A stretch of 64,000 nucleotides of DNA from Spinacia oleracea (Eukaryota; Streptophyta; Magnoliopsida; Caryophyllales; Amaranthaceae), in NCBI RefSeq assembly GCF_020520425.1, contig NC_079487.1:7425501-7489500 (forward strand). The letters are read 5' to 3'. The notes beneath the pieces were generated by a model. That model saw only the letters and a program-made list of their open reading frames with translations, was not told the origin of the DNA and ran no database searches. This document shows, piece by piece, positions 2,159 through 64,000 of this stretch. Position numbers and translations under genes: made by a program. Each line of letters starts with the position of its first letter. Position 1 is the stretch's first letter.

Positions 2159-4780
2159 TGTAACACCCCGACCTCTAAATCACTTATTAGGAATAATTAG
2201 CAGCGGAATTAACCTAATTCGGTCGGGACATTACTGTCGTAACTCCCTCTTGGGAATTACAAGGCAACCATCAATCATAAGCTATTAAACTCCAAAATTA
2301 ACATAATAATCCTTTTTAATTCTTCATTAAAAATACGCAACTTAATCAAAAATCTTTACTTAAACTTGTTACAACTTAACATTACTTAGGTGAACTTTGT
2401 AATAGTGAAATCCTCGCCACTACTCGTTTCCGTGGTCCCCAGCAGTACCTAAAACGGAAAACAAAACGGTGAGCCGAAGACTCAGTAACGAGTTACCCTA
2501 GCATCGTAACATCATTTCAATTCATTTTATTTAATAACACAGGGAGAATAGAATATAGTAAAACATTTAATAAATCATCATTTCAAAAGCATCATATCGA
2601 AAACATTATTTCAGGAACATCATTTCAGGAACATCATTCTTTAAACTTTTTTCTTTTTAATAGTATTATTCTGGTCGTCAGGACTTTACAGGAAAACATG
2701 GTAGGACGTCTCCTACGAATAGGGGAAGCCAGTGCTTCATAACAGGGGGAGTCAATGCTCCATAGCAGGGGAAGCTAGTGCTTCATTTCAGGGGGAACCT
2801 TGGTTCCATATCAGGGGAAGCCAGTGCTTCTTATCAGGGGGAACCTTGGTTTCATATCAGGGGAAGCCAGTGCTTCTAATCAGAGGGAGCATGGGCTGGA
2901 TATCAGGGGAACTTGACCAGTTCTTAAACTTTCATTTATCATGTTTACATTTCTTTTAGTTGAACATTAGTCAGGAAAATCTCAATCATTCAGGGTGGTT
3001 CAATAAACCATTAAATCTCGTTATTTCATAAAATCATTTCTTTCAGGAATAATAATTCATTAAATCAATACTTTTCATAAAGTTGCATTATCGTAAAACA
3101 ATTCAATCAAATCATACTTGTAATCTCGCAAATCATAAAACATCATTATAAAACATCAATCATTCATAAATCATTCATAAATACATTTCGAAGGGATTGC
3201 GGGTACTAGCAATAACCGTTACCTCAACCGTAGTTTTTATACTTCTTGTCTGATGGATCGTCCTTCCTGAGCTCCGAGTCTGATTTCTTTCAAAAGTTAA
3301 ATTGTTGAATTGATATTAAGACGAGAAATATTGTAAAATTAATATTTCTAAATAATTTTCGTTTAAAAATTCATAAAACAATTTACCTAAAGTATTATTA
3401 AATTCTATTAAATCAATACATAATATTTTCATAATTAATAAATACTTAAAACAATTAATATTTTCATAAATCAACACATGAAGTATTGTTTTCAAATCTT
3501 AAATCAAAATAGTTTCTAAATCATTGATTTAAATTATAACAATGCTAAAATAAGTAACAATTTATTTAGGGCCTAAATTAAATAGTGAAACTTACTTTGC
3601 AAAATTGGGCCAAAGGAATTGGGCCTTGGCTTGAGAAAATAAAGGGGGACTGAGTTCCAAACTGGAACGTGTTTTCTGGAAAGAAGAAAAGAGGAAGCGC
3701 GGAGCAGGGAGGTGGGTGCTCGAAACAGAGGAGCACGAAGGGAGGGAAGAGAGAAGGGAGACAGGCGGCGGCTGGGTGGCGGCTAGGCGGTGTCTAGGCC
3801 TAGGTGGTGCGGCGGCGAGGTGGAAGGAATGGGATAACAAGGGCGGCGATGATGGTGGCTGTGCGAACCAGAGAGAGAACAGGGGAGTCGAGTGAGGAGG
3901 GAGGCAGGGGAGCTGAATGAGAGAGACGGCGAGGGTGTAAGGCAAGGGAAGAAAAGGAAGAAGGAACAGGGGAGTGGGTGGCTGCGGGGGAGGTGAGAGA
4001 AGATAAGGGAGGTGTTGGGTCGTGTTTTCCGTAGATGGTGGCGGAGGTGAGGCGGGTAATGGTGGCGGAGATGGCTGACGATGGTGGTGGAAGAGAATGG
4101 TGGTGGTGAGTGTTGATGGTTCGAATCAGAAAATAGAAGAGAGGAGGAAATATTGAAATTGGTTTTGGTTTTCCATGTTAGAATTCCAATTCTGTAATGT
4201 TGAATTTGTAAATAGGAAGAGTGATGAACAAGGAGAAGTCATTGGTCTCCAAGGCATGCATTTGGACTGATTTCAAGGGAAAGGAAGAAAGAAATGAAAA
4301 ATGCTCCTTCTTGCTTGTACGTGGAGAGCAAGGAGAAGAGGTGAAATGGAATCTTGCTCTTCAAGGGAATTTTCGTAATTTCACATTATTAGGCCAAAAT
4401 TCAGAAAATTGATTTCTATTATTAGGAAATTAATTGGAATAGAAATAGTTAATTAAAACTAAGTTTCGAAATAATCCTTTTTTAAAAATATCGTTAACGA
4501 AAAATAAATTTAGTTTTCGAATAAAATAAGAATGTTCCGAAATTATTAAAAATCCGAAAATAATTAAAATTTAAAAAGGTCGTTAAACTCGTAAATATGA
4601 AATTAAATTATAAATTGAAAAATAAATCGTGTAGCAATGTTAAATAAAATAAAAAAATAAAAATCCAGCGAAATGAAACTTCGTTAAAATAAAGTTCGAA
4701 TTTAGGATTTAAAACGATTTTAAGCTAAATAAAAATAATTAAGCATGATTAATCAAATTTAAAAGCTTCGGGGTATTACA
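2159..4780 (-). repeat. 3' LTR of the non-autonomous gypsy element
   Basis: It is 2622 bp and ends TG...CA on the minus strand. Internal landmarks are a mini-hairpin array (2701-2925), a G-rich plus-strand tract (about 3650-4110) and an AT-rich tail. The other LTR lacks about 230 bp corresponding to roughly 4302-4535 and carries about 67 bp (near 22537-22602) absent here, so each copy has lost a different piece since insertion. Confidence 0.85.
2701..2925. repeat. Array of short inverted repeats (mini-hairpins) in the gypsy LTR
   Basis: About ten consecutive perfect or near-perfect hairpins occur, each with a 5-6 bp stem and 4-5 nt loop, spaced by short ATCAGG-like linkers. In order the stem/loop/stem units include GTAGGA-CGTC-TCCTAC, GAAGC-CAGT-GCTTC, GGAGT-CAAT-GCTCC, GAAGC-TAGT-GCTTC, GGAAC-CTTG-GTTCC and GAACT-TGACC-AGTTC. 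The stems differ from unit to unit yet remain self-complementary. The second copy lies at 8128-8143 and 21314-21510, split by the copia insertion. Confidence 0.8.
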
Positions 4781-4797
4781 CTCTTACCCCCCTTAGA
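4781..4797 (-). other. Polypurine tract of the non-autonomous gypsy
   Basis: The minus strand reads CTAAGGGGGGTAAGAG directly before the TGTAATACCCC start of the 3' LTR. The adjacent TTTCGAGGACGAAAC motif is typical of the 3' end of plant chromoviruses. It would prime plus-strand DNA synthesis. Confidence 0.8.
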
Positions 4798-7552
4798 AAA
4801 AGTTTCGTCCTCGAAACTTGAAAATTAGATTTATAAAATGATTGTTGAAAATTGAAAATGCTCGAATAAAAGTATAATGTTTTATTTAAAACCAAGATCT
4901 CACAATTTCAATTCTGACAATGTCTAGCCTTCATTCCGCCATCATCTTTTAGAACTGCGCTTCAACTCGAGACCTAGAATCGAAGAGTAAAGAATACAAA
5001 AGGGGCAAAATTATTTATTGATTCTTAATCGTCATTAAGGTCAATTACATTTCGCCATCGTCTTTCGTATCTCCACTTGACTTCATATAATAGGATCGAG
5101 GAGCAAAGAACATAAAAGGGGCAAACTTGTTAGCTTAGACTAGGCTTCCATATTACTTTGTGATATCTTGTTGGAAAATATTTTCTACCGAAAATAGTAA
5201 CTTTTAATGCAAAATTATAATTCTGAAAATATATGTATATGTAATGAAAATAAATATTTATCTACCAATTTCAACACTCAAATAATTTGTAAAAGTCATT
5301 TGTTATATCAATCTCGTACTCTGAGCTCAGGAGAACTTCCATCGGAGACGGCATCCATGTATAACAATAAGATCACCAGTACAATCATGTCATGTCAGCA
5401 TAAACATAATTCATATCATAGAGACATAATTCATGTGAAAATTTCAAATTCAACATAAGCATAACATTCATAATCATTTGATCTAACACACGAGCATGGT
5501 TGACCATAACATAATCATTCATAGAAAACATAGTAATTCATACATCATATCGTTCGTGGGCGAATAATTAGAGATATTTCGCTTTCATTTTCTATTGGCT
5601 TCTTTGTTGCAGGAATCTTGTCGTTGACTTCCGTTATTCGATTCGATTTCGATCTCCGATCTTTTCTTCTACGTTAAACAACTTCGTTTACTAAGTTTGT
5701 TGCAGGGGTTCGAGTGCATTCATGTGACAGGAAATACATCGTTTAAACATGCGATTTCGTTACTTATCTTTAATATTTTAAGTTGACAAACCTCAGATTA
5801 TGCGGATAATTCCAAGCCATCATACGTGCCCTTATCAGAAAAAATCTAGGTTCCAGAAACTTAGTTCAGACTACCTGGCTTTTACAGACATGTCATTTCG
5901 TCGATTTCTTTTCTTAACTCCATTGCATTCCTCAATCACTCATAATTCTTTTTGACCTTCATAACATTCATTGATATCATCAACTAATTCTCGATAACTT
6001 ATTTTGGTAAGTTCCTCAAAGCTTTATATGCAAACTCAATTCCATATTTTCACCATAAATCATGTTTTCCACATAACATTTCGCAAAACTTTAAATTCTT
6101 TCGCTTAGCTTTCTTTATGGAGATTATCAAGCATCCTTTCAGATAAATACATAAAAACAATCCTTATAAGTTATGCGGAAAGGTAATCTAAGAATCAATT
6201 TCAATCATAACTTCAATACTTTAAACCTCAATTTAATTGTTGATTCGCCACTTAGGAAATACAAACTCATGCTCTTTCGATACTCTATTATTCAACCTTT
6301 TGATAACTAATTCTTGATAACTCCTTTTGATAAAATCCTCAAGATCTTATTCATGTATCAACTCAAACGGGGTTTTTACCATAACTCATGGGGTTTATAA
6401 CATTCATGTATAACTTCTTAGCTTCCTTAATAAAGGCATATCAATCATTTTTTTAGATACTAGACTTTTGTACTTATAAACACCAAAACATTCATCGGAA
6501 AGGTAACCCAAGAATAACTTTTATTCATAACTTTAACACTTTAAACTTCGAATAATCTCAACTTAATTAGTGATCCACCAGTCATGGAATACAACCTTAT
6601 GCTCGCTTGGTACTCTTAACATTTATACTATCCTTAAAATTTTCATAACCATAAAAATTCCTCAAAACGATTCATATCCACAAAGTCTTGAGTTCGAGCC
6701 GTGCTTACCTTAACTTCTTCCAAGAAAACAGTAATACTTAAAATTTTCCTAGTCTGTCTAGGGTAGGAAATTCATAACATGACATGTGACGATAAATATG
6801 AAATCAAGGGAAGTTCGGTTAAAATAATATCAGCTTTGTCGTAATCTTCGTCTTTCATCATGTAAGCTCTTGCATATGTCGTGATCGTGTTGGATTATGA
6901 TTAACCCTAGGATTGTTGTTGTTTCGTTCATGATTGGTCGAGGTTGACGAAATGCTCTTTTCCTCCATGTATTCGTTCCTACACGACATTAGTTTCTTAT
7001 TCTTCGGGGCATTTCAAAGTCTCCAATAGTTGATCCATCTTGTTGGTCAAATCTTCAAATTCCATCGAATCGGCTTACCGTCATAGATTGGTGGATTCCA
7101 GGGTGAAATTTTCTCAAATAGTGATGCATTTTCGTTCGATTTCGTTTTTCGAGAATATTTGACAGATTAAGTTGATATCGTACTTGCATTTCCTAATCGT
7201 TTCATCATCTCCTCGTGGTCTTCTATCAATTGATCGTCACAAGAATCATCATGGCAAACATCATTGTGGACGACGTCATCGTGAATATTGCGTTTGTTGT
7301 GAGCTTCGTTCGTGGTATCGTTAGTAACCTCGATAATCGATATTTCGCATAACATATTCAATCAGGAAAACATAAATAACATGAGAATAAATCCCTTTAA
7401 TCCCGCTCCTACACTCACACTCATTCCATTTTAACTTGACTTGATCTTAACATATTCTTTTTAACTTATTCCTTAACACTCTTTGCTTAAAGCCTATTGA
7501 ATTCTATTTCGTGCGAAACCCATAAGGTTTAGCACTTATGGTACAGAACCTT
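4798..7552 (-). mobile_element. Non-coding internal region of the non-autonomous gypsy
   Basis: It is AT-rich with no ORF resembling gag or pol on either strand. The only sense-strand ORF of note is 64 codons (7167-7361), rich in Asp, His and Asn, near the primer-binding site; it may be a gag remnant or chance. A diverged tandem duplication of about 320 bp is visible (roughly 6000-6320 and 6320-6640), each copy carrying an AAAGGTAA...CAAGAAT stretch. A short repeat (AAAAGGGGCAAA) recurs near 4999 and 5115. Confidence 0.6.
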
Positions 7553-7566
7553 GGCTCTGAATACCA
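7553..7566 (-). other. Primer-binding site for initiator tRNA-Met
   Basis: The minus strand reads TGGTATTCAGAGCC, a near-match to the complement of the plant initiator tRNA-Met 3' end. It starts three bases after the 5' LTR end at 7570, which fixes the element's orientation as minus. Confidence 0.85.
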
Positions 7567-7569
7567 AAC

Positions 7570-8144
7570 TGTAACACCCCGACCTCTAAAACACTTATTA
7601 AGGAATAATTAGCAGCGGAATTAACCTGATTCGGTCGGGACATTACTGTCGTAACTCCCTCTTGGGAATTACAAGGCAACCATCAATCATAAGCTATTAA
7701 ACTCCGAAATTAACATAATAATCCTTTTTAATTCTTCATTAAAAATACGCAACTTAATCAAAAATCTTTACTTAAACTTGTTACAACTTAACATTAACTT
7801 AGGTGAACTTTGTAATAGTGAAATCCTCGACACTACTCGTTTCCGTGGTCCCCAGCAGTACCTAAAACGGAAAACAAAACGGTGAGCCGAAGACTCAGTA
7901 ACGAGTTACCCTAGCATCGTAACGTCATTTTAATTCATTTTATTTAATAACACAAGGAGAATAGAATATAGTAAAGCATTTAATAAATCATCATTTCAAA
8001 AGCATCATATCGAAAACATTATTTCAGGAACATCATTTCAGAAACATCATTTCAGGAACATCATTCTTTAACCTTTTTCCTTTTTAATAGTATTATTCTG
8101 GTCGTCAGGACTTTACAGGAAAACATGGTAGGACGTCTCCTACG
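7570..8144 (-). repeat. 5' LTR of the non-autonomous gypsy, distal segment
   Basis: It matches 2159-2717 almost base for base and then stops inside the hairpin array at CTACG (8140-8144), the target duplication of the nested copia. It continues at 21309. The first hairpin (8128-8143) is intact and the copia entered at its base. Confidence 0.9.
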
Positions 8145-12118: not shown

Positions 12119-12529
12119 AGGGTGAATATGTATTGCCTTTGTTGCTAAGAATGTGATTGTTCTGCTATTTTTGTTTGTTTTCTTTGGGCTGATTACATTA
12201 TGAGCAATGTCGATATTTAGCTAGTTTATTGTAATATTTACTTAAACTTTTATGTTTAAAGTGTAGTTAGGTTATCAACATGTTGGTTGATCTATGGTGA
12301 ATTTGCCTTTTATTGGGTTGTAAACTGTTTTGACAGGTATATATTAATGTATTATAACATTCCCGGTATTGGGGAGGGTCAAATTACAAAGGAAATATTG
12401 TCAAAATTTTCACCTAGTTTACTTTTATTTTTATGCTCTGAATATACTAGTACTGAAAGCTGCTTATTTTATTTAATCTATGGATTAAATAAAATCAGCA
12501 GCTCATTTTTTTTAGAATATCCAAAAGTC

Positions 12530-12948
12530 ATTTGCGTCGCACTTTAGCTAATCTGCGACGCAAATGACATTTTTTTTAACATATTGAAAAGTCATTTGCG
12601 TCGCACATTTAGCTAATGTGCGTTGCAAATGACATTTTTTTTAACATATTGAAAAGTCATTTGCGTCGCACATTTAGCTAATGTGCGTTGCAAATGACAT
12701 TTTTTTTAACATATTGAAAAGTCATTTGCGTCGCACATTTAGCTAATGTGCGTTGCAAATGACTTTTCAGCACCATGCCTGAAAAGTTATTTGCGTCGCA
12801 CATTAGCTAATTGTGCGACGCAAATAAGGTTCATTTGCGTCGCATAAATGTGCGACGCAAATGACTTTTAGTCATTTGCGTCGAGAGCTTTTGCCACGCA
12901 CGATGTGCGACGCAAATGTGCTTAAAAGTGCGATGCAAATGACCCTTT
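12530..12948. repeat. Right subterminal repeat array of the CACTA element
   Basis: Several near-identical units of about 64 bp (around 12590, 12653, 12716) each hold GTCATTTGCGTCGCACATTTAG and an imperfect inverted partner, ending in denser copies to 12948. Direct-repeat amplification is more advanced here than at the left end. Confidence 0.85.
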
Positions 12949-12962
12949 TTCCACTAGTGAGG

Positions 12963-13570
12963 GGTGTTGTATAGTGCGGGCATATGACGACGAGCAAGGG
13001 AGCTCGTTGCCCATGCGGCACGAATGCAATGAGAAAGGGCATGGTGCACGAGCACAAGGCAGCAGCCCTGCCTTGTGTCGTGGGCTATGAGCAATGGACA
13101 AATGGGCATGGGCGAAGGCAAGGCACGGCAGTCGCGTGTGGGCAGCAAGCGAGCTGCGCCACAACGCGCACTGCCTCGCGCAAGCGCGCGCAACCTCGCG
13201 CGCAGCGAGCGCAAGCTCGCGTGCCACGAGTGCTGCGCCCAGCGTCGATGCCGCGCGCAGCGAGCGCCTGCTCGCACCAAGCGAGCGCTAGCGAGCGCGC
13301 ACAGCATGCGCTGGCGAGTGCACGAAGCGAGCGCTGGCTCGCGTGCATCGAGCGCTGGCGCGCGCGCAGCGAGCACATGCTCGCGTGCATCGAGCGCTGG
13401 CGCGCGCGCAGCGAGCACCAGCTCGCGCGATGGCTTGCGAAGGGTAGAAGCAGCAGCTATGCGACGCAGCGCATGGGCTGCGCGCACATGGCCAGCGATG
13501 GCTGTGTGCGTGTGGCCCATGGGCGTGCGATGCGTAGGGTGTTTGCGTTGCGATTAGATCGTTTTGAATG
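12963..13570 (+). repeat. GC-rich repeat block in the copia leader
   Basis: It is strongly GC-rich inside an AT-rich leader. It contains diverged tandem units such as GCGAGCGCTGGC and GCGCGCGCAGCGAGCAC, with many self-complementary runs. The counterpart in the second copia is 52670-53065 (reverse). Long overlapping ORFs exist on both strands only because stop codons are rare at this composition; none resembles a known protein. Confidence 0.7.
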
Positions 13571-21303: not shown

Positions 21304-21308
21304 CTACG

Positions 21309-23208
21309 AACAGGGGAAGCCAGTGCTTCATAACAGGGGGAGTCAATGCTCCATAGTAGGGGAAGCCAATGCTTCATTTCAGGGGGAACCTTGGTTCCAT
21401 ATCAGGGGAAGCCAGTGCTTCTTATCAGGGGGAACCTTGGTTCCATATCAGGGGAAGCCAGTGCTTCTTATCAGGGGGAGCCTGGGCTCCATATCAGGGG
21501 AACTTGACCAGTTCTTAAACTTTCATTTATCATGTTTACATTTCTTTTAGTTGAACATTAGTCAGGAAAATCTCAATCATTCAGGGTGGTTCAATAAACC
21601 ATTAAATCTCGTTATTTCATAAAATCATTTCTTTCAGGAATAATAATTCATTAAATCAATACTTTGCATAAAGTTGCATTATCGTAAAACAATTCAATCA
21701 AATCATACTTCTAATCTCGCAAATCATAAAACATCATTATAAAACATCAATCATTCATAAATCATTCATAAATACATTTCGAAGGGATTGCGGGTACTAG
21801 CAATAACCGTTACCTCAACCGTAGTTTTTATACTTCCTGTCTGATGGATGGTCCTTCCTGAGCCCCGAGTCTGATTTCTTTCAAAAGTTAAATTGTTGAA
21901 TTAATATTAAGACGAGAAATATTGTAAAATTAATATTTCTAAATACTTTTCGTCTAAAAATTCATAAAACAATTTACCTAAAGTATTATTAAATTCTATT
22001 AAATCAATACATAATATTTTCATAAATCAATAAATACTTAAAACAATTAATATTTTCATAAATCAACACATGAAGTATTGTTTTCAAATCTTAAATCAAA
22101 ATAGTTTCTAAATCATTGATTTAAATTATAACAATGCTAAAATAAGTAACAATTTATTTAGGGCCTAAATTAAATAGTGAAACTTACTTTGCAAAATTGG
22201 GCCAAAGGAATTGGGCCTGGGCTTGAGAAAATAAAGGGGGACTGAGTTCCAAACTGGAACGTGTTTTCTGGAAAGAAGAAAAGAGGAAGCGCGGAGCAGG
22301 GAGGTGGGTGCTCGAAATAGAGGAGCACGAAGGGAGGGAAGAGAGAAGGGGGACAGGCGGCGGCTGGGTGGCGGCTAGGCGGTGTCTAGGCCTAGGTGGT
22401 GCGGCGGCGAGGTGGAAGGAATGGGATAACAAGGGCGGCGATGATGGTGGCTGTGCGAACCAGAGAGAGAACAGGGGAGTCGAGTGAGGAGGGAGGCAGG
22501 GGAGTTGAATGAGAGAGACGGCGAGGGTGTAAGGCGTGGCGGAGGTTGGCTTACAGGGTGGTGGGGGTGGTTGGGAGCAGTGGTGCGACGCTGGTGGTAC
22601 CGCAAGGGAAGAAAATGAAGAAGGAACAGGGGAGTGGGTGGCTGCGGGGGAGGCGAGAGAAGATAAGGGAGATGTTGGGTCGTGTTTTCCGTAGATGGTG
22701 GCGGAGGTGAGGCGGGTAATGGTGGCGGAGATGGCTGACGATGGTGGTGGAAGAGAATGGTGGTGGTGAGTGTTGATGGTTCGAATCAGAAAAGAGAAAA
22801 GAGGAGGAAATATTGAAATTGGTTTTGGTTTTCCATGTTAGAATTCCAATTCTGTAATGTTGAATTTGTAAATAGGAAGAGTGATGAACAAGGAGAAGTC
22901 CTTGGTCTCCAAGGCATGCATTTGGACTGATTTCAAGGGAAAGGAAGAAAGAAATGAAAAATGTTCTGAAATTATTAAAAATCCGAAAATAATTAAAATT
23001 TAAAAAGGTCGTTAAACTCGTAAATATGAAATTAAATTATAAATTGAAAAATAAATCGTGTAGCAATGTTTAAAAAAATAAAAAAATAAAATCAAGCGAA
23101 ATGAAACTTCGTTAAAATAAAGTTCGAATTTAGGATTTAAAACGATTTTAAGCTAAATAAAAATAATTAAGCATGATTAATCAAATTTAAAAACTTCGGG
23201 GTATTACA
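21309..23208 (-). repeat. 5' LTR of the non-autonomous gypsy, proximal segment
   Basis: Continuation of 7570-8144 after the copia insertion. It carries the rest of the hairpin array, in cleaner form than at 2750-2925, the G-rich tract (about 22240-22760) with a 67-bp segment missing from the other LTR, and the TGTAATACCCC start at 23208. A deletion of about 230 bp relative to the other LTR falls near 22966. Confidence 0.9.
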
Positions 23209-57164: not shown

Positions 57165-57636
57165 TGTAACGCCCCGACCTCTAATTCAAGTATTAAAGCA
57201 TAATTAGCAGCGGAATTAACCTAATTCGGTCGGGTCGTTACACGCTGTAAATTCCTCTTGGGAATCACAAGGCAACAATCAATCATATTCCATTAGAACT
57301 CCCAAAATAATATAATAGTCCTCAAAATAAAAGTACATAACTTACTAAAAGTCTTTAATTAAACTATTACAATATTAAGCATAAACTAAGTGAACATTAT
57401 TATAGTGAATTCCTCGCCACTAATCGTTTCCATCGTTCCCCGCGGTACCTAAAACAGAAAACAAAACGGAGAGCCGAAGACTCAGTAACGACTATCCTAG
57501 CAGCGTAAATTCATTTCAATTCATTTTATTTAATAACACAGGGAGAATAGAATATAGTAAAATATTTTATAAAGTCCTTTATTTAATTCATTTATAGATT
57601 TAGGGTGCACATGCTAGCCGTGGCAAGTATGACATG

Positions 57637-57730
57637 GTGGAACGTCTTCCACGATGGACCGCTGTCCATAAAACATGGGGCCTTGGCCCGGAAAACATGA
57701 GAGCCTTGGCTCAATGGGCAGATGCCCCAT
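57637..57730. repeat. Mini-hairpin array in the chromovirus LTR
   Basis: Five successive short hairpins: GTGGAA-CGTC-TTCCAC (57637), ATGGAC-CGCT-GTCCAT (57654), GGGC-CTTG-GCCC (57678), GAGC-CTTG-GCTC (57701) and GGGC-AGAT-GCCC (57716). The first has the same CGTC loop as the first hairpin at 2701 with a different but still complementary stem, and the CTTG loop also recurs in both LTRs. Confidence 0.8.
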
Positions 57731-59534
57731 GGGTACATGCATGACCGAGAATCGTAACCTGTGAACATATACTGCCAAACGGACTAGGTATTTCACTTTC
57801 ATTTATCATGTTTCGTTTAATTTTACATTTTAGCCTTTTTACTTTAATTGAAATAAAATAATTCCTTTAGATCATGTGATCAACATAAATCATCAATTCT
57901 TTCATGGTTTCTTATAGATACTATTTTATAAGAAATTCACTCAATCATGATATCATTTTATAAGAAAATCCAATCAATTATAATATAAGGAATAAATCCA
58001 TCAAATCATATTATAATAAATAATTCAATAAAATCATATTTCATTTCCCGCAATTCATAAAACATGTCAAAACATTCAATTCATAAATATATCATAACAT
58101 GGTAATTTCATAAACGCATTTATAAGGGAATTGCGGGTACTAGCAATAGGCTTTACCTTGATTCCGCGACTTTGCTAAGGGATTTTCGTTGGTTCGTTCG
58201 TCCTGAGCTCCGAGTCCAATTTCTTTCAAAATATTAAATAATTGAATTAGTACTAGATCGATAAATAATTTAAAATCAACATTTTATAAATAATAATTTT
58301 TATAATAATGGTTTTATTAATATAATTTCATAATTTAATGAAAATAGATTTAAACGAAATTTTTATCAAATTATATTTATATAAATCGATTTACATGAAA
58401 ATAATATATGAATTCGGTTTTTTGTTAAGTAAAGCTTAGAAATTTATTTTATTAAATTCGATAACTAAACCTGAAAAATATTAAATAATTTTATTAGTAA
58501 ATATTTATATCATAGAAATAAATTAAAACATGAAACTTATAAATTAGGAAAATCTGAAATCATAAGTGGGTTTCTTACCCAAAAGCCCCAATTAATTTGG
58601 CCCAAATTTTATTTTGTGGGTTATAAGGGGAATAAAGATCAAACCAAAAATTATTTTGGTTTTGGCTGGGAACAGAGACGAACGAAACAGGGGAGGGGAG
58701 GAAGAACACGAAGAGGAGGAGAGGAGAGGAGAGGAGAGAGGTGGCTGCCTGGGCTCGGTGGTCTGGCGCAGCGCCGGAGGTGAGGCGACGATGGTGGTGG
58801 TTGACTGGTGGTGGCAGAACGGCGAGGGAGGTAGAGAAAGGCGCGAGAGGGCGAACGAGTAGGGGAGTTTTGGGGTGGTTTCGTGGGTGGTTCTGGGCGG
58901 CGACAGGGCGGCTTGTCGGGCTATTGGGGTCGGGGGTTTGTTTGGGGAGGTGGTGAGGTGCTTTTAGGGTGGTGGAGTGGCGTGGTGCGGGTGGCGCAGC
59001 GAGCAGGAAAGGGAGAGACAGGGGAGGGGGCAGGGGTGCGCGCGGGGGAAAGGGAGAGGGAGAGGGAAGGAGGTGGTGCGTGCGGTGGTGCCGCGAGGCG
59101 AAGGTGGTTAGGGTGGTTTGCTGTGCTGGACGGAGGTGGCAGTGGTGGTAGCCGGTGGTTGCGGTGGTCTTTGCGGTGGTTCGAAATTACAGGAAATAGA
59201 AGGGAGTGAAATTGAAGTTTTTGATCTTGATTTTTGGTTGAGGGAATCAGTTCTGATGGTTGGGTTTGTAAAGGGAGAAGAGAAAGAGTTCCATTTGAAC
59301 TTTGCAAGTGAATGTAGATGGGATTAAGGGAAAAGAGGAAGGAAGGAAGAACTCAGCTTCTTCTTGCTCTGGTTCACGTGGAGAGCAGGAAAAAAAACGA
59401 GTGAAAGTGAAATTTTATTCTTAAGGGCATTTTGGTCATTTCACAAGATTAGGCCAAATTCTGAAATTTGTTGCTATTTTTGGAAACTACTAAAAATGGA
59501 AATGTTTAGTTTAAAATAATTCTTAATAAAAATA

Positions 59535-60077
59535 GGATATTTTGGTATTTACTATCTTAAAAATACACCACTTTTGTATTTACTACCTTATGAAATTTTT
59601 ATTTTAAATTACTACCTTAAACTTCCAATTTTTATTTATTTACTACCACTTTACAGTTTTCTCATTTTAAAATTAAGATATCTCTTTTGTTTCTTAATCG
59701 TTTAATGTAATTCAAAGTTCATTAGTCTCCTTGCTCTATAGGGATTTCATTGAGAACGACATTTTAAAACAATCCGTTTGATAATTCATATACATTTTAA
59801 ACTTTTACATATAATATTTAACTCATTTTACATTTAGTAAAATTTTAAAAGCAAGATCTCTATGGAATCCTTACACATAAATGAGAAGAATGGGCTTTGA
59901 ATCACTTAAAATGATTAGGAAACGAAAGAGATATCTCAATTTTAAAATGAGAACATTGTAAAGTGGTAGTAAATAAAAATAAATTGGAACTTTAAGGTAG
60001 TAATTTAAAATAAAATTTTCATAAGGTAGTAAATACAAAAGTGGTGTATTTTCAAGGTAGTATATACCAAAAAATCC
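59535..60077. mobile_element. Mutator-type MITE (long terminal inverted repeats)
   Basis: Inverted arms of about 160 bp, starting GGATATTTTGGTATTTACTA and repeating TTTACTACCTTA, flank a short centre. A perfect 9-bp duplication ATAAAAATA flanks it (59526-59534 and 60078-60086), the hallmark of Mutator-like insertion. The related LTR at about 4478-4503 reads straight through this site, giving the empty state. Confidence 0.9.
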
Positions 60078-60256
60078 ATAAAAATATCGTTAACGAAAAA
60101 TGAATAAATTTTCGTTTATAAATTTATCGTTTAAAATAAATCGTAAAAACGTTTAAATTAACGGAATTCGATAATTCGTAATTATTTAAAACGAAATCAA
60201 GCTAATAAATATTTTTAATTTTAATAAATCAAGTTTAAAAATTTCGGGGTATTACA

Positions 60257-60431: not shown

Positions 60432-60865
60432 CTAAACGAATAACTGGGGGTATTTCGATCTCATTTGCGCTTCGACTTCCCAGGTGGCTTCGGATGTCAA
60501 GTAATTGGCCCACAAGACTTTAACCATTGGAATTACTTTGTTTCTAAGTCGTTTCTCTCTTCGTTCAAGAATTTCGATTGGTTTCTCCTCGTAAGTCAGA
60601 TCGTTTCGCAACATCAAGTGTTCGTGAACAATCACATGGCTAGGATCAGGAACATATTTCCTTAACATGGATACGTGGAACACATTATGCACCTTTTCCA
60701 AGTCGGTCGGTAAAGAAAGTCGGTATGCTACTTCTCCTATTCTTTCTAATATCTCATATGGCCCGATGTACCTTGGGCTCAACTTTCCAGCCTGACCAAA
60801 CCTCATTATTCCTTTTGTGGGTGAAATTTTCAAGAACACGTGATCACCAACTTCAAATTCTAACG
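60432..60865 (-). pseudogene. pol: Gypsy integrase C-terminus and chromodomain
   Basis: About 140 codons in a frame shifted from the preceding integrase: [15 protein letters not shown], then GPYEIL and VFHVSMLRKYVPDPSHV (integrase GPY/F-type module), then YEEKPIEILERREKRLRNK...ATWE, a chromodomain of the plant chromovirus type that would direct integration to heterochromatin. The natural stop is at 60432. A 1-base loss near 60866 separates it from the rest. Confidence 0.88.
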
Positions 60866-63090
60866 TCTTCTTCGTCGGTCTGCATAACTCTTTTGCCTAC
60901 TTTGCGCTGCTTTCATTCTCGATTGGATTAAACGAATCTTGTCGGTAGTTTCTTGAATCAATTCTGGTCCTATGACATGTGCTTCATCGATATCACTCCA
61001 ACATAATGGTGTTCGACATTTTCTTCCATATAGAGCTTCGTACGGTGCCATACCAATGGTGGCCTGATAACTGTTGTTGTACGAAAATTCAACCATAGGT
61101 AGAAACTTCTCCCAGGTTCCTTGAAAATCCAAAATACATGCTCTCAACATATCCTCGACAATTTGATTGGTACGTTCCGTTTGTCCATCGGTCGTTGGAT
61201 GAAATGCAGTACTAAAGTTAAGTTTCGTCCCAAGGGCTTTCTGCAATTCTTTCCAATAGGTTGATTGATACCTCGTATCACGATCAGAAACAATCGAACT
61301 AGGCACTCCATGTAATCGCACAATAGTGTTCACATATAGTTCAGCAAGTTGATCCAAACTTGAATTGTTCTTCATTGCTAAGAAATGCGCTGACTTTGTT
61401 AATCGATCAACAATGACCCAAATAGCATTCATTCCCTTTGTTGACCTTGGCAACCCTACGATAAAATCCATTGAAACCGAGTCCCATTTCCACTCTGGCA
61501 CATCCAGAGGTTGCAGCAACCCTGCTGGTCTTTGATGCTCTATCTTAATTCTTTGACACGTCAAACATCTAGCCACATATTCTGCCACTTCCTGCTTCAT
61601 GTTGCTCCACCAATACACTTGTCTCAAATCCTTATACATCTTATTTTCTCCAGGGTGGATCGAGTATGGCGAACTGTGAGCTTCCTCTAAGATTCTCTTT
61701 TTCAACTTTTCGTCGTTTGGTACGCATAATCTCCCTTGAAATCTCAACGTGCCATCTTCTTGCACTACAAAACCAGGTGACTTCCCATTTTGCACTTCGT
61801 TTCTTATTCTTCTTAATTGCAAGTCCTGACATTGTGCTTCCTTAATCTCATCAATCAAAGTTGGCTTCATTACGAACGTATACAAACATGCACTTCCTTT
61901 CTTAATGAACTCATTTTCCATCTTTTGCAAATCATCTTGGTTGGCTCGAGAAAAAGTTAGGATTGAGCTTAGGTGAGATTTTCGACTTAATGCATCGGCA
62001 ACTACGTTAGCCTTTCCGGGATGGTATTGAATATCAAGATCATAATCTTTAAGGAGTTCTAACCACCTACGTTGTCTCATGTTGAGTTCTTTTTGGGTGA
62101 AAATATACTTAAGGCTTTTATGGTCAGTGAAAATTTGACACGAAACTCCATACAAATAATGTCTCCAAATCTTAAGGGCGAAAACAACAGCTGCAAGTTC
62201 AAGGTCATGGGTAGGGTAGTTCTGTTCATGGACTTTGAGTTGGCGCGAAGCATAAGCTATGACTTTTCCATTTTGCATTAAGACACATCCTAACCCATTC
62301 TTAGAAGCAGCACTATAAATAACGAATCCCTCAGTTCCAGATGGAAGGGTAAGAACAGGGGCAGTGGTAAGTCGTTTCTTAAGTTCTTGAAATGCACATT
62401 CACAATCATCATTCCACACAAATTTGGTATTCTTCCTAACTAATCGGGTTATAGGTAAGGCAACCTTAGAAAAGTCTTGAACGAACCTTCTATAGTATCC
62501 AGCTAAACCCATAAAACTCCTTACTTCAGGGACATTAGTTGGTCTAGGCCATTCCACAATTGCTTTTATTTTCTCAGGGTCAACAGATATACCTTTCTCA
62601 GAAATAATATGACCTAAAAACGAGATTTCCTTAAGCCAGAACTCACACTTTGATAACTTGGCATACAATTGGTTTTCAATCAATGTTTCTAACACTTTTC
62701 TCAAATGAACCTCATGTTCCTCATTACTCTCGGAATATACCAAAATATCATCAATAAAAACAACCACAAACTTATCAAGGTAGGGTTTAAAAATACGGTT
62801 CATTAAATCCATAAATACAGCTGGTGCATTGGTCAACCCAAAAGGCATTACAACAAACTCATAGTGACCATATCTAGTTCTAAAGGTTGTCTTTGGAATA
62901 TCCTCAGGTTTAATTCGGAGTTGATGGTATCCAGACCTTAGATCAATCTTAGAAAATACTTTTGCGCCTCGAAGCTGGTCAAACAAATCATCAATACGTG
63001 GTAAGGGATACTTATTCTTAATGGTGATCTTGTTTAGCTCTCTATAGTCTATGCATAACCTCATAGTTCCATCCTTTTTCTTCACATAAA
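60866..63090 (-). pseudogene. pol: Gypsy reverse transcriptase, RNase H and integrase core
   Basis: An open frame of over 740 codons. [33 protein letters not shown] and the catalytic FIDD (usual YVDD/FIDD box), then FLGH. RNase [21 protein letters not shown]. Integrase: H...H...C...C zinc domain (CLTCQRIK), [16 protein letters not shown] and the TDGQTERTN block carrying the catalytic Glu. It ends early at TAG after a 1-base loss near 60866. Confidence 0.93.
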
Positions 63091-64000
63091 ACAGGGGCTC
63101 CCCAAGGTGAAACACTAGGTCGAATATATCCTTTTTCAAGTAACTCATCTAATTGTTTCTTTAATTCTTGTAACTCAGCTGGTGCCATTCTATATGGGGC
63201 CTTAGAGATGGGGGTGGATCCTGGAATTAATTCAATACTGAAATCTAATTCTCTTGGTGGGGGCATACTAGGTATTTCTTCTGGAAAAACATGTGGGTAC
63301 TCACAAACAACGGGTATGTCGGTAATGGAAGATCCAGGGGTATTTAGGTCAATAATACTACACAGATAACCAGAAACACTACTCTCAATCATTTTACGTG
63401 CTCTCAAAGCATGGACAATTTGAATCGTTAACTTATGGAATGAAACTCTCTCTCCATTTGGTGTTCTAAGGGTCACACTTTGCCTCGAACAATTAAGGTT
63501 AGCTTCATACTTAGTCAACCAATTCATTCCCAAGATTACATCAAATTTAGATAGGTCAAAAGCTACTAAGTCTGCTAGAAACTCTACTTTTTCTATTACA
63601 ATGGGACAATCTCTATACATGGTTCTACATTTCACTATTTCTCCACTAGGAAGGGAAACACTCATAGCATGAAAGTCACAACATGGTTTCAAACATAAAC
63701 ATTTAGCAAACAATGGAGAAATAAAGGAATGTGAAGCACCGGAATCAAAAAGAACATGGGCAGGTGAAGAGTGGATAGAAAAGGTACCAGTGATAACATT
63801 ATCGTCCTCATCTGCTTCATCTTGTCTCATCACAAACACTCTCCCAGTTGGCGGGGGTCGTGGTGGATTGCGGTTCGAACCTCCTGCATTGTTGTTCTGA
63901 CCACGATCGTTGCTAGTTGAAACTGGTCCTCTCATGTTTGGCGTCACTTGATTTGGGCAATCTCTGACGTAATGATCATGGCTTCCACAACGATAGCAAG
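63091..64000 (-). pseudogene. gag-pro: Gypsy gag C-terminus and protease, partial at the window edge
   Basis: The right end encodes a zinc knuckle CYRCGSHDHYVRDC (about 63958-64000). Then comes a Pro/Asn-rich linker, a protease with DSGASHSF, and the beginning of RT (YRMAPAELQELKKQL...GYIRPS). Near 63090 one base is missing within the VLF-KKKDG region and the frame ends shortly after. Most of gag and the 5' LTR lie beyond the window. Confidence 0.9.

Follow-up and report, generated by a model that had tools for sequence, protein, structure and literature searches.

The long terminal repeats (LTRs) of Ty3/gypsy retrotransposons in Spinacia oleracea carry a string of mini-hairpins. Its leading hairpin, H0, occupies one LTR position in four array types (A, C, D, and E), and the stems differ between types by matched changes in both arms. 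Two-sided stem changes that retain pairing are a criterion of conserved structured RNA elements, and such changes were observed here. We put at about even the reading that the array is a selected cis-acting string of stem-loops in the transcribed part (R or 5' leader) of the LTR, a putative aid to packaging or dimerisation. The window, i.e., the whole stretch of DNA analysed, comprises 64,000 nucleotides (C1:7425501-7489500), and its host DNA consists of nested LTR elements of the plant.

Host Elements and Layout of the Array

Three LTRs in the window carry the array, all in minus-strand orientation. LTR A (2161-4779; TG..CA ends; sense = minus) is the 3' LTR of a non-autonomous Ty3/gypsy element. 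LTR B is split into two halves (7572-8144 and 21304-23208) by a copia-like insertion, which is flanked by the duplication CTACG at 8140-8144 and 21304-21308. A 5-bp duplication, TTTAA, read from the sequence, brackets LTR A and LTR B as one element, whose termini are TGTAA..TTACA; the two LTRs share 98% identity (2342/2387 aligned letters). The 2.8-kb interior between them (4780-7571) is devoid of a long open reading frame, the ORFs of at least 60 aa at 4700-7600 being just 83 and 64 aa, as befits a non-autonomous element. LTR C (57169-60254) is the 3' LTR of an element whose pol domains lie at 60432-63998. It is 68% identical to LTR A (1608/2367 aligned letters), and the identity reaches 83% over 417 aligned letters at the LTR 3' end.

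The assignment to Ty3/gypsy LTR retrotransposons is based on TG..CA ends, a polypurine tract, the 5-bp target duplication, and the order of protease, reverse transcriptase, RNase H, and integrase; the ends and duplication were found in the A/B element, and the pol domains (RVP_2, RVT_1, RT_RNaseH, and Integrase_H2C2, on the minus strand) adjoin LTR C. The pol region beside LTR C is spread across three minus-strand ORFs, and this copy therefore looks broken. The same element gave a Tf2-1-like SH3 match of 89.9 bits and a PF00385 Chromo match (E 0.00015) whose 22.1 bits lie under the curated cut-off of 25.1. Judging from the style of LTR and polypurine tract, these chromovirus-like elements may belong to the Tekay clade. 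LTR C also contains an inverted repeat at 59535-60077 (235-nt arms, 86% complementary, 73 nt apart), which is perhaps a foldback insertion.

The array of LTR A spans 2701-2925 and consists of ten mini-hairpin positions on the minus strand, namely H0 and nine 23-bp units. H0 (GTAGGA-CGTC-TCCTAC) lies at 2701-2716, and its position is homologous in types C, D, and E. Units u1-u9 (2721-2927) hold one hairpin position each, in which a five-pair stem encloses a loop of 4-5 nt: u1 2725-2738, u2 2748-2761, u3 2771-2784, u4 2794-2807, u5 2817-2830, u6 2840-2853, u7 2863-2876, u8 2886-2899, and u9 2909-2923. A tandem period of 23 or 46 was detected over 2721-2911 by TRF. Pairing is perfect at seven of the ten positions; u2 contains one T.G pair and u6 one G.T pair, and u8 is broken in this copy, so that nine of the ten retain five or six pairs when G.T is counted. 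LTR B has the same ten positions, at 8128-8143 and 21316-21514: its H0 (8128-8143, minus strand) stands immediately ahead of the copia-like insertion and its units u1-u9 (21312-21518, minus strand) beyond it. Unlike in LTR A, u6 and u8 are intact in LTR B, u8 being GGAGC-CTGG-GCTCC.

In LTR C, five minus-strand hairpins were found at 57637-57727, with spacing altered relative to A: H0 GTGGAA-CGTC-TTCCAC (57637-57652), h1 ATGGAC-CGCT-GTCCAT (57654-57669), h2 GGGC-CTTG-GCCC (57678-57689), h3 GAGC-CTTG-GCTC (57701-57712), and h4 GGGC-AGAT-GCCC (57716-57727). The first-pass annotation had described about ten hairpins at 2701-2925 and five in a different LTR at 57637-57730, and both arrays are confirmed, with the sequences that it gave. 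A G-quadruplex, suggested by GGGG every 23 bp in A, was dropped by inspection because C and D are without regular GGGG runs. Other repeats were noted in the window: 14-bp repeats AAAACATCATTTCA lie between H0 and AATAAA in A-type LTRs (2572-2638 and 7985-8065), their number varying by copy, and a 65-bp tandem repeat of five copies, with inverted TTTGCGTCGCA-like words, is present at 12504-12825.

Distribution of Array Types in the Genome

The genome searched comprises 894,210,420 bases in 242 contigs. The array-adjacent motif GAGCCGAAGACTCAGTAAC, with at most one mismatch, gave 972 + 1077 = 2049 matches, and the reversed control gave 0; the matches fall on six contigs, C1-C6. The H0 pattern had 1205 genome matches (reversed control, 42). 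Among the 100 of these that were listed, 93 have by eye a perfect stem AGGA/TCCT or GGAA/TTCC, and the remaining seven are three copies with GCAA/TTCC and four single copies.

Type, as used here, is the array type, assigned without an element tree. Loci L001-L060 are the nearest copies of A and C (40 scored of 686 and of 934 candidates, respectively) and form a biased set, L061-L090 are the first 30 of 100 motif places listed on C1, and L091-L110 are 20 that we picked from the other 70. H0 is present in 48 of the 50 C1 motif places sampled (L061-L110, which include the three LTRs of the window, L065-L067), with 20 of type D, 14 of A, 13 of C, and 1 of E. The two other places, L076 and L095, have different sequence instead of H0. 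Type E is not single copy: besides L075, 39 other places have 89-94% identity over most of the 371-letter query (40 scored of 1467 candidates). Unit number in A arrays was followed at 42 loci by a walk that halts at irregular spacing, and it was 9 in 34 loci, 7 in 4, and 1, 2, 10, and 11 in one each.

Among the 48 sampled places with H0, the array is interrupted further on in L066, L093, L098, and L108. The arrays of LTR B (8144/21304), L093, L098, and L108 are interrupted by sequence that opens with TGAAGGAAAT, as does the window's copia-like LTR, and in L095 and L076 the break precedes the array. An insertion preference for arrays was considered and dropped, as the 30 places L061-L090 show no clear excess, 28 being unbroken on the side of the array and 29 on that of U5.

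Hairpin Excess and Matched Stem Changes

The first-pass annotation had proposed comparing hairpin density with shuffled sequence, and an excess was found. With arms of at least 5, the array of LTR A has 7 perfect hairpins against a dinucleotide-shuffle mean of 0.52 (maximum 3, 500 shuffles), the units of LTR B without H0 have 8 against 0.57 (maximum 3), and the array of LTR C has 2 against 0.31 (maximum 2); with arms of at least 4, the latter has 6 against 1.0 (maximum 4). The bin at 2701, with 7 perfect hairpins, is the joint top with that at 21376 among the 284 bins of 225 bp in the window. A GC-rich 21-bp tandem array TGGCTCGCGCGCAGCGAGCGC at 12900-13500 holds 4 and 5 perfect hairpins per 225-bp bin (bins 13051 and 13276). 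Single arrays of each type were also compared with 2000 shuffles at arms of at least 4. The counts were 9 against 1.8 in A (reached by 0/2000), 5 against 1.2 in C (5/2000), and 6 against 2.0 in D (6/2000), the fifth C and sixth D hairpins being overlapping alternatives of the named last hairpin; in the one E array the excess was absent (2 against 1.0; 527/2000). Hairpin counts in A and B are inflated by tandem duplication, which makes matched changes in the stems the more reliable test.

Such changes are present at several positions. H0 is GTAGGA/TCCTAC in A, GTGGAA/TTCCAC in C, and GTGAAG/CTCCAC in D; among E-like places it is GTGGAA/TTCCAC in one of two and, in a separate set, four of five, with L075 the exception both times. 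The h1 stem is TGGAC/GTCCA in C and TGGGC/GCCCA in D, and E-like places have ATGGGC-CAGT-GCCCAT (GGGC/GCCC) in three of five, against ATGGAC-CGCT-GTCCAT in C, the four places besides L075 having been assigned as E-like by this string alone. The last hairpin is GGGC/GCCC in C and GGAC/GTCC in D. The A units were counted over 40 unique sequences, six unique ones of the terminal type being set aside: at pair 6-17, 19 have A-T, 18 have G-C, and 3 have another combination, and at pair 8-15, 35 have G-C, 3 have A-T, and 2 have another combination. Across the A units, 92% of cells pair, against 14-37% when slid, and 0/2000 shuffles reach 92%. The number of pairs with two-sided change in A units is reached by 830/2000 shuffles, and this measure gives no support.

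In six comparisons among types A, C, and D, picked by us after viewing the arrays, 7 pairs are kept by two-sided change and 2 pairs are broken, which supports the compensating change proposed in the first-pass annotation. This outcome was reached by 1/100,000 simulations with 67% transitions, by 17/100,000 with transitions only, and by 106/100,000 when the tandem units were omitted; the events are few, and the test is a simulation rather than R-scape on a tree. A ten-comparison version, with E rows and one non-independent row that were dropped from the final simulation, gave 8 kept and 4 broken, reached by 0/100,000 simulations. Because the hairpins of C and D were recognised as hairpins in the first place, h1 and the last one are taken as homologous by their position and flanks, a bias from which H0 and the A units are free.

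Decay Within Types

Relative to the commonest pair, the C copies (44 loci, 1052 cells) show 9 left-only and 5 right-only changes, 4 two-sided non-pairing changes, and 1 two-sided pairing change (0.014 expected). The D copies (18 loci, 418 cells) show 8 left-only and 11 right-only changes and 0 two-sided changes of either kind (0.07 expected). Pooled over 1470 cells, there are 33 one-sided, 4 two-sided unpaired, and 1 two-sided paired changes. Thus, within types, copies mostly lose pairing one side at a time after insertion. Single-sided loss within types, together with two-sided changes fixed between types, fits selection over element generations.

The paired double is found in h3 of L042, where G-C has become T-A; the pair is G-C in the 43 other C-type copies. 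Genome-wide it is G-C in 603 copies, changed on the left only in 6, on the right only in 2, and on both sides in 1 (about 0.03 expected under independence). This pair was chosen for the genome-wide count on account of its double, so it gives a weak hint of a concerted event and no more.

Position in the LTR and Strand

In the sense order, the array is followed by TTATTAAATAAAATG, which holds AATAAA (2526-2531, minus strand); beyond this lies a stable block that contains TTTTGTTTTNNNTTTTAG/GT (the slash marking the splice-like boundary). Among ten aligned LTRs, AATAAA is present in eight and missing in L075, of type E, and in L076, which has an E-like flank and lacks H0. The putative 3'-splice-site-like TTTTGTTTTNNNTTTTAG (2449-2468, minus strand) is present in nine, L062 ending in GTTGTAG. 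A putative 5'-splice-site-like AG/GTAA (3216-3227, minus strand) lies upstream of the array; in nine of the ten LTRs, L076 excepted, AG/GTAA..TTGCTAGTACCCGCAAT stands about 245-335 letters upstream in sense. TATA-like words occur at distances that vary among LTRs. The poly(A)- and splice-like motifs would fit a location in the R region or 5' leader, perhaps inside an intron of that leader, and the array probably lies within the transcribed part of these chromovirus-like Ty3/gypsy LTRs.

In short-range folding of the sense strand, A forms ten hairpins in a row and D forms a six-pair H0 with one G.U, and the antisense D fold lacks that six-pair stem. In local folding, the antisense of A is lower (-66.6 against -59.8 in sense), C and D are about equal, and L075 (E) folds better in sense (-29.2 against -19.7); the folding z-scores of the two strands lie at a modest -2.2 to -2.4. 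Non-standard pairs at the level of types are a G.U on the sense strand in H0 of D and one on the antisense strand in u2 of A. By our tally, one-sided transitions in C and D copies number 8 against 9 between strands. The H0 of E had been considered as a further type-level G.U pair on the sense strand and was dropped, as other E-like places have GTGGAA/TTCCAC; the letter in H0 of L075 looks private to that copy, and L075 was therefore not counted in the strand question.

Alternative Explanations

Several other processes could produce paired arms. In hairpin-templated copying, i.e., a template switch in reverse transcription or repair, one arm would be copied from the other without selection. The two-sided changes between types and the T-A double of L042 (1 copy changed on both sides genome-wide against about 0.03 expected) agree with it, the latter pair having been selected for its double, while one paired double against 33 one-sided changes in 1470 C/D cells indicates that the process would be rare, and the breaks in u6 and u8 of window copy A were left uncorrected. 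Copying error as the main cause, a possibility raised in the first-pass annotation, is thus disfavoured by the 44 C and 18 D copies, and we regard this explanation as quite unlikely. A passive tandem minisatellite, whose founding unit chanced to hold a hairpin and in which pairing has no role, would account for the 23/46-bp array of A units with their variable number; it leaves aside the hairpins at 57637-57730, where TRF finds no tandem array, and H0, which is not a repeat unit and still has two-sided changes, and the simulation without units (106/100,000) also counts against it. The passive reading is disfavoured already and is very improbable.

The arms could also be read as DNA. Dyad-symmetric sites for a dimeric protein in the LTR promoter, with RNA pairing as a by-product, would be palindromic with a 4-5 nt spacer, as these stems are, and the left arms are chiefly purine; D-type stems moreover contain TGGGCC, which we take to resemble plant TCP/site II motifs. 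The half-site, however, is not fixed, the stems including GAAGC, GGAAC, GGAGC, GAACT, GGGC, GAGC, GGAC, GTAGGA, and GTGGAA, and a joint drift of both arms is unexpected for a sequence-reading protein. We regard such sites as an improbable cause. An RNA alternative places the array in a structured part of a 5'-leader intron, so that the leader of the unspliced genomic RNA alone would carry it and the structure would control splicing or tag that RNA. AG/GTAA upstream and TTTTGTTTTNNNTTTTAG/GT downstream, each in nine of ten aligned LTRs, speak for this; against it, spliced retrocopies gave 0 matches for one joined-exon pattern, fitting C/D-like ends. We consider an intron-based role unlikely.

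Proposed Mechanism

The best reading of the array is that of an RNA element, as a candidate, based on the sequence comparisons. It is likely that pairing has been maintained over element generations. On balance, the pairing may well reside in the element's RNA, and its serving packaging or dimerisation is possible, if doubtful. Under the selected stem-loop string that we favour, selection over element generations would keep the stems paired while stem letters, loops, spacers, and hairpin number vary. The array would be transcribed, with the sense RNA as the paired molecule, and the string would provide Gag with multiple equivalent sites for binding or dimer formation, which would help packaging or dimerisation of the genomic RNA. 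Every arm is also able to pair with its counterpart in a second copy of the RNA, so a zipper-like dimer contact would be the natural version of this mechanism. A bolder form, which we hold to be rather unlikely, is a lineage-wide, modular, copy-number-variable string of interchangeable stem-loops, in which pairing and not sequence is selected. Such a string would sort genomic RNA for packaging, acting as a multivalent zipper or as a landing strip for Gag, and it could be restricted to unspliced leader RNA.

Relation to Known Systems and Significance

Little is known, as far as we are aware, about the signals by which plant Ty3/gypsy elements package and dimerise their RNA. No Rfam family matched the window at its gathering score, and at 2161-3300 there was one weak match (E 0.6; 19.4 bits against a gathering score of 54.9). 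The array queries had 0 matches in viral_contigs and no confirmed relative in genome_contigs beyond the source plant. No description or name of such a hairpin array was found in the available portions of open-licence literature, which is weak evidence of novelty.

In BARE of barley, the translated and packaged RNA pools differ, and the likeness to the present case would lie in cis signals in the RNA of a plant LTR retrotransposon (PMC3735527). BARE, however, is a copia element, and the words "hairpin" and "stem-loop" occur 0 times in that paper (PMC3735527). A packaging role of the present array is a candidate one. The ENE triple-helix of Evade/ATCOPIA93 is likewise a structured RNA of a plant LTR retrotransposon and affects mobility; its internal loops contain U-rich tracts, and it is located between the ORF and the 3' LTR (PMC12501189), whereas the loops of the array are by inspection without U-rich tracts and the array is sited inside the LTR. 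Bongo (Tekay clade) chromoviruses of Beta vulgaris share the probable chromovirus affiliation and long LTRs, mostly 2.6-3.0 kb in the published table; the terms "hairpin", "tandem", "palindrom", and "inverted repeat" occur 0 times in that text (PMC3605345), the comparison being one of published descriptions. Conservation of long R regions in retroviruses has been linked to stem-loops, as in the LTR array here, but the available part of that account does not describe an array of interchangeable mini-hairpins (PMC3601003).

The array is a short, sequence-defined candidate signal, which can be tested by breaking one arm and restoring the pairing with the other. The approximately 2000 motif-bearing LTR copies in one genome provide a natural data set for selection and decay acting on the RNA structure of a mobile element.
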